DNA of 64,000 bases from NCBI RefSeq assembly GCF_019061145.1, contig NZ_JAHQZS010000007.1:1-64000 (forward strand), read 5' to 3'. Source of the stretch: Anianabacter salinae. GTDB lineage: Bacteria; Pseudomonadota; Alphaproteobacteria; Rhodobacterales; Rhodobacteraceae. The notes under the pieces are model-generated. The model was not told the DNA's origin. It saw only the letters and a program-made list of their open reading frames with translations, and made no database searches. A program made the position numbers and the translations under genes. Below, piece after piece: positions 52,230 to 63,110 of the stretch; the first letter of the stretch is position 1, and each line of letters starts with the position of its first letter.

Positions 52230-52257
52230 TTAGCGCGCAGCATGTGACTCTTTGCAT
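52230..52257 (-). promoter_or_regulatory. Predicted promoter of the catabolic cluster
   Basis: On the minus strand, TTGCAT within the right half of the palindrome is followed after 17 bp by CATGCT, a weak -10. This would put the operator over the -35 element, a standard place for repression. The -10 match is poor, so confidence is limited. Confidence 0.35.
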
Positions 52258-52267
52258 ACGTATGCAA
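52252..52267. promoter_or_regulatory. Perfect 16-bp palindrome, likely LacI-family operator
   Basis: TTGCATACGTATGCAA is a perfect inverted repeat with the central CG typical of LacI-family operators. It is the most AT-rich spot of the 155-bp divergent region between the solute-binding protein gene and the SnoaL gene at 52334. The LacI regulator encoded at 44188-45207 in the same cluster is the obvious candidate to bind it. Confidence 0.8.
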
Positions 52268-52333
52268 GATTTTTCTTGCGCGGCCTCCGGTTCCGGTGTC
52301 GGACTGTTCCGGACACCATCGCCAAGGCCTTCC

Positions 52334-53395
52334 ATGACGCACGCCCCTACCCTTCCAGCCTCTGTCCGCCGCGCCGTCCGGGACGGCCTGCTGCGCCTCG
52401 CCGACTGCCCGCCCGCGCAGGTGCCGGGCGTTCTAGAAGCGATCTCGACACCGGGCACCGACTGGCGGGTTTCTCACCCGATCAACGAGGTGCGTGGTCC
52501 CGAGGCAGCAGCCAGCGCCGCTTTTGTGCCGCTCAAGACAGCCTTCCCGGACCTTGAACGACGCGACACGATCCGCGTCGGCGGCGTCTACGAGGGCCGC
52601 AACTATGTCGCCGCCGTCGGAACCTATTGCGGCACGTTCCGGCACGACTGGCTGGGCATCCCCGCCACCGGGCTGACGGCCCACCTGCGTTATGGCGAGG
52701 TCTATGAGGTCGATACAGACGGCCGCATCCTTCAGGCGAACCTGCTGTGGGACGTGCTTGACCTGGTCCGCCAGGCCGGGCTGGCCCCGCTTGCGCCCAG
52801 TCTTGGAGCAGAGGGGATGTGGCCGGGTCCGATCACGGGCGACGGGCTGCGCCTTGATCCGTCGGACCCCGGCGAAGGCGCGGCCTCGATCGCGCAGACG
52901 CTTGCGATGCACGCCTCATTGGCCGAATTCGACGATGCGGGGCGCCTGAACCGCGAGAACCTGATCGCGATGCCGCAACGCGACCACTGGCACCCCAAGA
53001 TGATGTGGTACGGGCCTTCGGGGATCGGCACGACGCGCGGGCTGGACGGCTTCGTCGACGGGCACCAGTTGCCGTTCCGCATCGCCTTTCGCAGGCCGCA
53101 AGGGACATTCGAGGCCGTCACCGCCGAACGCCGCAGGCACGGCGCGGGGCACTACATCCGCATCGGCGACGGACCCTATTCGGTCACCGGCGGCTGGCCG
53201 TCGGTCTACGCCATCCACGACGGCGGCGGGTTCTGCGGGATGCCGCCCACAGGCCGCCCGGTCACGATGCGCGTGATGGACTTCTACCTGCACGACGAGG
53301 GCCTGATCCGCGAGAACTGGGTCCCGCTCGACATGCTGGACCTGTTCCGCCAGATGGGCGTCGACGTCCTCGCACGGGCGTTGGCCAAGGTCTGA
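52334..53395 (+). CDS. Divergent two-domain SnoaL-like protein
   Basis: A 353-residue protein with two NTF2/SnoaL units. The first (about 35-160) has WRVSHPINEVRGPEAAASAA and RYGEVYEVDTDGRILQANLL. The second (about 215-350) has HPKMMWYGPSGIGTTRGLDG, GHYIRIGDGPYSVTGGWPSV and TMRVMDFYLHDEGLIRENWV. The second half resembles ester-cyclase type SnoaL proteins. It is transcribed away from the ABC operon across the shared operator, so it is probably co-induced. The ATG at 52334 is preferred over an upstream ATG at 52244 that lacks similarity. Confidence 0.8.
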   Translation: MTHAPTLPASVRRAVRDGLLRLADCPPAQVPGVLEAISTPGTDWRVSHPINEVRGPEAAASAAFVPLKTAFPDLERRDTIRVGGVYEGRNYVAAVGTYCGTFRHDWLGIPATGLTAHLRYGEVYEVDTDGRILQANLLWDVLDLVRQAGLAPLAPSLGAEGMWPGPITGDGLRLDPSDPGEGAASIAQTLAMHASLAEFDDAGRLNRENLIAMPQRDHWHPKMMWYGPSGIGTTRGLDGFVDGHQLPFRIAFRRPQGTFEAVTAERRRHGAGHYIRIGDGPYSVTGGWPSVYAIHDGGGFCGMPPTGRPVTMRVMDFYLHDEGLIRENWVPLDMLDLFRQMGVDVLARALAKV

Positions 53396-53407: not shown

Positions 53408-53908
53408 TCATCCGCCCGGGCGCGCGGGGCCGACCTGTTCCCAGACGGCATCCGGCGTCAGGTCGGCTCGGGGGCTGCCGGTCTCGAACCCCAGCAGATG
53501 ATCCAGCGACAGACGGCCCGGCCCATGGGCAAGGATCGGCAGAAGCGCGGCGATCCACAGCCCATGGGTGATCCAGGCGCCGGGGTAGACGAAGATCTGG
53601 ATGACGGCGGTCATCACGATCAGCCCCAGCGCCGAGAGGCGCGAGAACAGCCCGGCGATCAGCAGGATGGGCAGCGCATGTTCAGCCACTGTCGCCAGCA
53701 CCGCCGCAACCTCGTGCGAGATCACGGGCAGCGCGTATTCATGCTCGAACAGGAAGAACGTGCTGTCCTTGATCGAGAACACCCCCTCAACCTTGGTGCG
53801 CCCGGACTGAAAGAAGACCATGGCCGGAAAGACGCGCAGGGCAAGCGCCACGACGTCGGCGGGAATGCGGTCGAACAGCGCATTCGCGCGCAGCAGGATG
53901 GATTTCAT
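53408..53908 (-). CDS. DoxX-family membrane protein of the bufferin operon (BufD-like)
   Basis: A 166-residue protein with four helices ([81 protein letters not shown]; approximate positions 20-41, 66-85, 92-111, 113-131), the DoxX design. DoxX proteins commonly accompany DUF692/DUF2063/DUF2282 genes, as in the Caulobacter buf operon. It may handle redox or membrane steps linked to the metallophore; the role is not established. It starts 3 bp after the DUF2063 gene. Confidence 0.87.
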
Positions 53909-53911
53909 CGG

Positions 53912-54664
53912 TCAACTCTCCGGTGGGTGAATGAACCCGCCCGCCTGCATCAGCAGGACAAGGACGGTCTGGGGCGCATGGCCGGGGTCGGCCCACTGCG
54001 CGAGTTCGGCGGCGGCGTGCAGGGTGGCGCCGGTCGCAAGATGCTCGACAAGGATCAGATCACCCTGGGAAATCTCGTGCACCTGGACGGCAAGGCTGCG
54101 GTCGCGCAGCACGAGCGCGAACTGGTCGCCGGAGGGGATGCGCTGCGCCGCGTCCGCGCCGGGCTGGTTCTGCCGCCAGATCGTCAGGGCGGCGGCCCCG
54201 AATTGCAGGACCTGCACCGACGGGTGCAGCGTCAGCACCAGCCGCGACGGATCGGCGCCCGCAACGGCAGCGGGGTCCAGCGGCGCGGCATCGGCAGCGT
54301 GATACGCCCTGCCCCGCGCCCATTCCAGCCGGGCCACATCGCGCATGTAGGGATAGCCCGCCAGCGGCGCGAACCCGGCCAGGAAGTCGGGAAAACTGTC
54401 GCCCCAGTCCAGCAGCACCGGAGTGCGGGGGCGATGGGTTTCGGAATACACCCGTCCCAGCGCGGCGAAGAATGGATCGCCCACCAGCCGCCGGATCACC
54501 GGGAACCGCTGGCCCAGCGCCTCGCTCAGGCTGTGCGAGACATTGTTGCGATAGACCGCAAAGCGCAGGTCCGCATCGCCGTCGCAAAAGACCGCGCCGG
54601 GCGGCAACGCGGCAGTGCGCAGCCCTTCGGCAAAGCTGCCTGCAAATTCAGGATGCGAGGGCAT
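53912..54664 (-). CDS. DUF2063 partner protein of the MNIO enzyme (BufC-like)
   Basis: A 250-residue protein of the DUF2063 family. The N-terminal helical domain is typical: [60 protein letters not shown] and [20 protein letters not shown] (given by their key stretches between residues 32 and 125). In RiPP systems with MNIO enzymes this partner recognises the precursor and presents it to the DUF692 enzyme. It overlaps that gene by 17 bp. Confidence 0.88.
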
Positions 54665-55499
54665 GGCGGTGTCCGGCAGCGTTCAGAACAGAGCGCGCGC
54701 GGGCGGCCTCTGCCTGCAGCACCGGCCATTCGGGCACGTCGTTGTCCCATTCCACCAGCACCGGGCAGGCGCCGATCCGGGCGATGACTTCGGCGAACAG
54801 CGTCCACACCGGCTCGGCCACAGGCGAGCCATGTGTGTCGATCAGCAAGGCGCCGCCGGGCAGGTGATCCTCGTCATGGCCGCCAAGATGGATCTCGCCC
54901 ACCGCCTCGACCGGGAAATCGGCCAGATAAGCGCGCGGGTCGCGCTGCTGGTTCGCGGCAGAGACGAAGACGTTGTTCACGTCCAGAAGCAACCCGCAGC
55001 CGGTGCGGCGCACGATCTCGCGCAGAAACGCGGTTTCCTCGATGCTCGATTGCTCGAACATCAGGTAGGTCGATGGGTTCTCCAGCAGCATCCGGCGGCC
55101 CAGCGCCTCTTGCACCTCGTCGATGTGATCGCACACCAGCGCCAGGGTTTCGGGCGTGTAGGGCAAGGGCAGCAGGTCGTTGAGGTATTCGGTCCCGTGG
55201 CTGGACCAGGCAAGATGCTCTGAAAAGCTTTCGGGCTGATAGCGCAGGCACAGGGCACGCAGGCGCTCCAGATGATCGCGGTCAAGCGGTCCCGGCCCGC
55301 CGATCGACAAGCCGACGCCGTGCAGCGAGATGGCATGATCCTCGCGCAGCGCCGTCAGTTGCGCGTGCGGCACGCCGCCCGCGCCCATGTAATTCTCGGC
55401 GTGGATCTCGAAGAAATCCATTTGGCGCGCACTGGCGCGGATCGCCTCGAAATGCGCGGACTTGAACCCCACGCCGACGCCGGAAGGCAGATGTGTCAT
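54648..55499 (-). CDS. MNIO (DUF692) RiPP-modifying enzyme (BufB-like)
   Basis: A 283-residue TIM-barrel enzyme of the DUF692 family, a multinuclear non-haem iron oxidase. Candidate iron ligands are visible in [71 protein letters not shown] and [12 protein letters not shown], in family order. Such enzymes oxidise Cys residues of small precursor peptides; in the bufferin system they make thiooxazole rings from cysteines. The ATG at 55499 ([12 protein letters not shown]) is chosen, with AGGACGAG upstream. It follows the precursor gene by 73 bp. Confidence 0.93.
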
Positions 55500-55572
55500 C
55501 GTCGTCTCGTCCTGCTTCGGGGGTCTGTAGTGCCGGACGGGATGAACCACCCGCCCGGCGTCGATTGTCCGC

Positions 55573-55878
55573 TTACGCGGGAATGTCGCGGTCCAGAGCT
55601 TCAAGCGCACCGGCGCGCATCGAGCCGTCTGCCGCCGCGGGCACTTCGATCTCGGCGCAAGTGCCTGCGGGAACGAGGGTCCAGGCGTTGCCCTGGAAAT
55701 CCACCTTGGAGGTTCCGGCGCAGGTCGTGCCGGGGCCTGCGGCGCAGTCGTTTTCGCCTGCAAGCGAGACGCCAAAGCACTTTTCCATCTCCTGTGCGTG
55801 CACGGGCGCGGCGGCCATCACGCTGAGGGCACAGGCGAGGGACGCACCAAGGCCGAGGCCCGATTTCATTGCGGTCAT
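55573..55878 (-). CDS. Bufferin-type RiPP precursor (DUF2282), secreted
   Basis: A 101-residue precursor. A Sec-type signal peptide (about 1-28, ending VHA) is followed by the conserved DUF2282 core: [35 protein letters not shown] and LVPAGTC, with Cys at 34, 45, 53 and 74. In described bufferins the two central Cys (here 45 and 53) are converted by the MNIO enzyme, and the product sequesters copper in the periplasm. An unusual C-terminal tail of about 25 residues (from EVPAAADGS) follows Cys74. GGAG lies 8 bp before the ATG. First gene of a four-gene operon. Confidence 0.92.
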
Positions 55879-55928
55879 GAGTAAGCTCCATGTCATTTTG
55901 AACGAGGGCGGTTCCTTGCCCACGCGTA

Positions 55929-55957
55929 AGGGTCTTTTCGCGCAGGCCAGTTGTTAC
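55929..55957 (-). promoter_or_regulatory. Predicted ECF-type promoter of the bufferin operon
   Basis: On the minus strand GTAACA (55952-55957), 17 bp, then GACCCT (55929-55934). The same spaced pair, GTAACA-N17-GTCTCT, precedes the divergent anti-sigma gene. A -35 with AAC is typical of ECF sigma factors. The leader to the precursor ATG would be about 44 nt. Confidence 0.55.
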
Positions 55958-56101
55958 GCGGCTCGCAATGCTGTGATGTCGGGGTCAGGCGGTCGGTGGT
56001 CCCCCACCGGCCAAAGCCGCACCAAGGGCCGAGAACGTCAGAGAAAGATGTGCTTCCAACTGACGCAGCCATGGATTTCGGAAGCATGCCGACATATTTC
56101 C

Positions 56102-56130
56102 GTAACAAGTCGCACGATGGCGGAGTCTCT
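56102..56130 (+). promoter_or_regulatory. Predicted ECF-type promoter of the anti-sigma gene
   Basis: GTAACA (56102-56107), 17 bp, then GTCTCT (56125-56130), identical in layout to the site in front of the bufferin operon 150 bp away on the other strand. The start point would fall about 26 bp before the ATG at 56163. Confidence 0.55.
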
Positions 56131-56162
56131 TGCTCGGTCATGTAGGCCCGGGAAACCCGACG

Positions 56163-56414
56163 ATGATGATGAGCTGCAAAGAGGTCGCCGAACGCGCGAG
56201 CAAACTGATCGACGGCGAATGCTCTCCGTGGGAGGCGTTGCGGATCCGGCTTCACCTCGCGATGTGCGACGGTTGCAGCGGTTTCGTCACGCAGCTTCGC
56301 ACGCTCGACAAACTTGCCAAGGATGCTGTGGGCACGGATCAGGCCGATGAAACCGTGCCTGCCACCGGCAAGTATTCCGACGCGCTGGCCGCACTCCGCG
56401 ACAAGAGCGGCTGA
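56163..56414 (+). CDS. Small zinc-finger anti-sigma factor
   Basis: An 83-residue cytoplasmic protein of the zf-HC2/ZAS type: SCKEVAERASKLIDGECSPW, then LRIRLHLAMCDGCSGFVTQL, giving the H-x3-C-x2-C zinc motif (HLAMCDGC) and an upstream Cys. Such short proteins bind and silence an ECF sigma factor and release it on oxidative or metal signals. No sigma gene is next to it; the nearest ECF gene is at 62490-63110. Three consecutive ATG codons (56163, 56166, 56169) could serve as start. Divergent from the bufferin operon. Confidence 0.85.
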   Translation: MMMSCKEVAERASKLIDGECSPWEALRIRLHLAMCDGCSGFVTQLRTLDKLAKDAVGTDQADETVPATGKYSDALAALRDKSG

Positions 56415-62489: not shown

Positions 62490-63110
62490 TCATTCGCCAA
62501 GGTCCAGCATCCGGGCCCGGAGCGCAAGGCGGGCGCGGTGCAGCAGGACGCGCATGTTCCCTTCCGAAATTCCAAGCAACGCGCAGACCTCGGACGCCTC
62601 CAGTTCCTGCTGGACACGAAGGATGATAACGGCGCGCTGGGGCGGCGGCAGCGCGTCTATCGCGGCGTTCACAAGGGCAGCGCTGGACCGACCCGAGGCG
62701 ATCCGCTCTGGCGTGATATCCTCGCGCAACTCGGCCATGTCCTTCCACCGGCCCCGCCCGTCGAAAGCATCGGACAGATCGTCGCCGAAATCATCGTCGA
62801 ACGACACCACGCGGCCATCTCTGCGCGCCCGCGTCCGCGCCTTGTTCAGCAGGATCGAGAAGATCCACGCCGCAAGTGTGGACCGCAGCTCGAAGCTGGA
62901 GATGCCCTTGAGAACGGCCATCCAGGTGTCCTGCACCACATCCTCGGCTGTCGCCCTGCCCTTGACCACCGAGGACGCCACCCGGATCATCGACGGCGTG
63001 TGCCGCCCATACAGGTGCGCGAACACACGCTCGTCGCCCAGCCGGAGGCCTTCCACCAGTTCCGCGTCGCTCAGCTCGTCGTCGTCCATCAGGCTTCCCG
63101 CAAATGCCAT
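62490..63110 (-). CDS. ECF-family RNA polymerase sigma factor
   Basis: A 206-residue sigma-70 family ECF protein. Region 2 (about 30-95): FAHLYGRHTPSMIRVASSVV, KGRATAEDVVQDTWMAVLKG, SFELRSTLAAWIFSILLNKA. Region 4 (about 145-200): ALVNAAIDALPPPQRAVIIL, LEASEVCALLGISEGNMRVL, HRARLALR. The linker between them is unusually acidic (SFDDDFGDDLSDAFDG). No anti-sigma gene adjoins it. The small anti-sigma at 56163 is the nearest candidate partner. Start ATG 63110 (AAGGTG upstream) or 63089 (MDDDELSD, GGGAAG upstream). Confidence 0.92.
   Translation of the reverse strand: MAFAGSLMDDDELSDAELVEGLRLGDERVFAHLYGRHTPSMIRVASSVVKGRATAEDVVQDTWMAVLKGISSFELRSTLAAWIFSILLNKARTRARRDGRVVSFDDDFGDDLSDAFDGRGRWKDMAELREDITPERIASGRSSAALVNAAIDALPPPQRAVIILRVQQELEASEVCALLGISEGNMRVLLHRARLALRARMLDLGE

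Follow-up and report, generated by a model that had tools for sequence, protein, structure and literature searches.

A conserved C-terminal precursor tail in a standard bufferin operon of a Rhodobacteraceae-type alphaproteobacterium

The four-gene operon described here lies in the window, the 64,000-nucleotide stretch of Anianabacter salinae DNA that was analysed, and the locus is ordinary: it holds the standard bufferin gene set of an already known family (Table 1). We estimate a probability of about 0.88 that these genes form a standard operon for Buf1 bufferin biosynthesis, of the kind expected in a Rhodobacteraceae-type alphaproteobacterium, with the corresponding thiooxazole/copper mechanism. 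The C-terminal tail of the precursor, which the preliminary description had regarded as unusual, is, judging from the alignments, a clade-typical and strongly conserved part of the precursor and no aberration.

A complete four-gene operon with overlaps or short gaps between its genes had been proposed at 53408-55878, and both points hold: the operon runs compactly from 55878 to 53408 with all four genes on the minus strand, with a 73-nt gap between bufA and bufB, a 17-nt overlap of bufB with bufC, and 3 nt between bufC and bufD. The ATG of bufA, at 55878, has a GGAG ribosome-binding site upstream, and bufA is located directly upstream of the MNIO and DUF2063 genes, in the bufABC order. Furthermore, the four Pfam matches (DUF2282, MNIO, DUF2063 and DoxX) are far above chance, each exceeding its curated cut-off. 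A SnoaL-like protein with two matched stretches and an uncertain start codon is encoded on the opposite strand at 52244-53395 (+); its gene and bufD end 12 nt apart.

Table 1. Features of the bufferin locus and of the neighbouring sigma/anti-sigma genes in the window
Feature	Position	Strand	Evidence or remark
bufD, DoxX family membrane protein, 166 aa	53408..53908	-	Pfam PF07681 57 bits, cut-off 23.6
bufC, DUF2063 partner protein (PME type 1), 250 aa	53912..54664	-	Pfam PF09836 79 bits, cut-off 27.2
bufB, MNIO bufferin maturase, 283 aa	54648..55499	-	NCBIfam NF050167 MNIO_BufB 384 bits, cut-off 310; Pfam PF05114 (MbnB_TglH_ChrH) 354 bits
bufA, Buf1 bufferin precursor, DUF2282, 101 aa	55573..55878	-	Pfam PF10048 85.1 bits, E 3e-24, cut-off 22.4
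Conserved bufA C-terminal tail, 27 codons past the last Cys	55576..55656	-	Length and motif shared by most family precursors
Intergenic region between bufA and the divergent zf-HC2 gene, presumed site of the bufA promoter	55879..56171	.	
Orphan zf-HC2 anti-sigma-like gene, divergent from bufA	56172-56411	+	PF13490 41.8 bits; NF052368 50.3 bits, cut-off 50
Likely cognate ECF sigma gene	62490-63101	-	62% identical to Pseudooceanicola sigma

The earlier assignment of the DUF692 protein to the MNIO family is borne out by the profile search, in which BufB matched both PF05114 (354 bits) and the curated NCBIfam equivalog 'MNIO family bufferin maturase' (NF050167, with 384 bits where the cut-off is 310). 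In an alignment of BufB with 236 relatives, ten of its residues (H60, H95, E140, D173, N175, H204, D221, H223, E250 and D252) show at least 97% conservation, and these we take, from what is known of the MNIO family, to be the metal ligands and the catalytic base. The BufB sequence can also be aligned with those of two MNIO proteins of solved structure, 3BWW and MbnB. No other MNIO gene was found in the 95% complete genome. BufB falls below the NCBIfam cut-offs for HvfB (241 bits versus 360), ApyH, MbnB and ChrH, and BufC and BufD fall below those of the HvfC and HvfX models, as expected for partners of a bufferin and not of an oxazolin. The oxazolin/captophorin systems (HvfABCX, fontiphorin) do resemble the window operon in combining an MNIO enzyme with a DUF2063 partner, and in those systems thiooxazoles and copper binding have been described (PMC12668002, PMC13097082). 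Their precursors, however, have EGKCG repeats, whereas the window precursor has a DUF2282 domain and no EGKCG, and the operon does not classify as HvfABCX.

As initially described, BufA is a precursor with four cysteines and a putative signal peptide. Cys34, Cys45, Cys53 and Cys74, in the contexts EKCFG, NDCAAG, TTCAG and AGTC, are invariant across 76 aligned sequences, and the N-terminus (approximately residues 1-29) looks signal-peptide-like by eye, with K5, a hydrophobic stretch and a cleavage-like site, AHA|QEMEKC, before the core. bufA is the only DUF2282 gene found in the 95% complete genome. No NCBIfam model matched the precursor, and a single-sequence search for solved structures related to the precursor or BufC found none; AlphaFold modelled the precursor with low confidence (mean pLDDT 61), which lends no structural support. 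Two related loci (L133 and L130) have two DUF2282 precursor genes each, and one of the L133 copies has NGC in place of NDC.

Buf1 bufferins are reported to be Sec-exported precursors (PMC12452194) in which the two central cysteines are converted to thiooxazoles and the first and last form a disulfide, the modified product chelating copper in the periplasm; related thiooxazole chemistry is described in PMC12668002 and PMC13097082. By analogy, the window cluster most likely makes a periplasmic thiooxazole peptide that buffers copper, and it is from such relatives that we infer modification, export, copper binding and protection in this organism. BufC (DUF2063) would present the cytoplasmic precursor to BufB (MNIO), which would oxidise the central Cys45 and Cys53 to thiooxazoles; Sec would export the precursor, Cys34 and Cys74 would join in a disulfide, and the modified peptide would bind excess periplasmic copper, with assistance from the DoxX protein. 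The proposal that this is a bufferin/MNIO RiPP operon agrees with the curated profiles, the operon order and the literature, and the accompanying suggestion of periplasmic copper buffering is likewise consistent with the profiles, the order and the literature on relatives (PMC12452194, PMC3511200). Homologous operons first became known as gold-induced (gig) or chromium-induced genes (PMC3511200), and roles beyond copper have been suggested (PMC12452194), so that the MNIO-modified peptide might mainly serve another metal or stress (gold, chromate, cadmium, oxidative or sulfur stress). We consider this unlikely, given that copper is the metal reported to be bound and buffered by the characterised Buf1 bufferin (PMC12452194), and that the window locus holds no pointer to another metal.

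The probable copper-buffering Buf1 operon has close counterparts. Its gene order equals that of the core cluster in PMC12452194 and is identical, over the same four families, to that of Caulobacter CC3254-CC3257, an operon of the SigF regulon encoding DUF2282, DUF692/MNIO, DUF2063 and DoxX proteins (PMC3511200). The two differ in that CC3254 is listed at 93 aa, compared with 101 aa for the window BufA, and in that the Caulobacter operon adjoins sigF and the gene for its negative regulator, nrsF, whereas no NrsF was found in the genome analysed here. Two long-tail Rhodobacterales Buf1 loci, from Rhodobacterales bacterium CG2_30_65_12 (L033) and Paracoccus zeaxanthinifaciens (L034), share the same operon and a 27-residue tail with the RD[IV]PA end, their precursors being 82% and 77% identical to that of the window, respectively. 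Unlike the window locus, L034 and two Paracoccus plasmid loci have SigF/NrsF downstream. Within the same bacterial family, DUF2282 is found in 212 out of 296 genera, or about seven in ten of those sampled; bufB and bufC adjoin bufA in all 128 family loci tested, and of 80 related loci, at least 50 also carry DoxX.

NrsF (DUF1109, PF06532) was not found anywhere in the 95% complete genome, no SigF/NrsF pair is linked to the window bufferin locus, and a loosely matched search for the SigF-type site GTAAC[CA]-N15-17-CG[AT] found none upstream of the window bufA. These absences could be read as signs that the operon, lacking a linked regulator, is a decayed or silent relic. This reading is very improbable in view of the four intact frames and the conserved catalytic residues; moreover, linked SigF/NrsF is also absent from 108 of 118 family loci with longer tails. 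Indeed, among family loci L002-L031, L112-L151 and L183-L242, linked SigF/NrsF accompanies 9 of 10 short-tail precursors (17-18 aa) but only 10 of 118 with a longer RD tail (Fisher p 4e-8, with common descent ignored). A SigF-type site, loosely matched, was found upstream of bufA in 15 of 27 short-tail versus 24 of 216 longer-tail regions.

The preliminary description correctly recognised a long tail after the last cysteine but put it at about 25 residues; 27 residues follow Cys74, ending in the near-invariant motif GSLE-x-L-x-RD-[LIV]-PA. The same bacterial family was sampled at 130 loci that rank towards the top by E-value, with one genome per genus. In the 133 precursors encoded there, 27-28 residues is the modal length (81 precursors), followed by 22-24 (33), 17-18 (10) and longer tails (9). 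The proposed alignment of the precursors showed that the tail is conserved, its end being among the best conserved parts of the protein: of the 81 tails of 27-28 residues, the arginine and the aspartate are each kept in 80, L18 in 79, G16 in 78 and P26 in 77. Across all loci of the first set, the loosely matched RD-x-[PA] end is present in 210 of 215 tails of at least 20 residues and in none of 29 shorter ones. Tails of 22, 27 and 43 residues retain the RD-x-P end, the preceding stretch varying in length. Of 109 precursors from outside the family (counted after removal of five loci of the same family), 12 have the motif, and these come from several other, mostly alphaproteobacterial, families. 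An origin of the tail by frameshift or readthrough was also considered and is ruled out, as many relatives have tails of identical length with the same motif.

The Pfam DUF2282 model spans 53 positions and stops just past the last cysteine, and the tail therefore seems extra, being invisible to Pfam. The same length and motif in most family precursors nevertheless indicate that such a tail is typical of the clade, and its conservation makes a function probable. A narrow literature search found no function described for the motif. The tail is thus a concrete, testable bufferin element that the Pfam model omits, and its role appears unstudied. Tentatively, and at somewhat less than even odds, we propose that many alphaproteobacterial bufferins have in GSLE-x-L-x-RD-[LIV]-PA a functional element not described so far, for example a docking or folding motif for a periplasmic partner or BufC, which would have been repeatedly gained or lost without a matching change of BufB clade. 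When 124 BufB proteins were placed in a quick maximum-likelihood tree, family members fell into two supported groups, one of 80 sequences without short tails and the other of 22 sequences, of which 11 are paired with short tails and 11 with longer ones. The window BufB belongs to the mixed group, beside that of L033. Related BufB enzymes hence pair with both kinds of tail, which argues mildly against the tail as the main handle for BufB. That the tail marks a strain-specific, functionally divergent bufferin with altered secretion or metal binding, as its length compared with the 8-23 residues of most bufferins outside the family might suggest, is scarcely credible, since the family-wide modal length and nearly invariant motif refute it as a strain-specific oddity and long and short tails share one well-supported BufB clade.

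The regions upstream of long-tail bufA genes are enriched in TGTAACA, found by k-mer enrichment within 250 nt in 94 of 207 regions compared with 2.4 in shuffles (e.g. L061, L079 and L102). Its distance from the gene is variable, it often lies beside an apparent upstream terminator and it has no fixed second element; for these reasons we do not call it a promoter. The window has two copies of GTAACA in this region, one approximately 70-80 nt upstream of bufA and the other on the opposite strand, oriented towards the zf-HC2 gene.

Relatives of this anti-sigma-like gene, in Pseudooceanicola algae and four more cases, directly follow an ECF sigma gene. In the window, about 6 kb of DNA containing TetR and peptide ABC transporter genes separates the zf-HC2 gene from its likely cognate ECF sigma gene, and the two lie on opposite strands. 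The split looks like the result of an inversion, as inverting the intervening segment would restore the usual order; no clear inverted repeats were found at the ends of that segment. On a plasmid of Pseudorhodobacter turbinis, the sigma/anti-sigma pair and a bufB are separated by about 8 kb.
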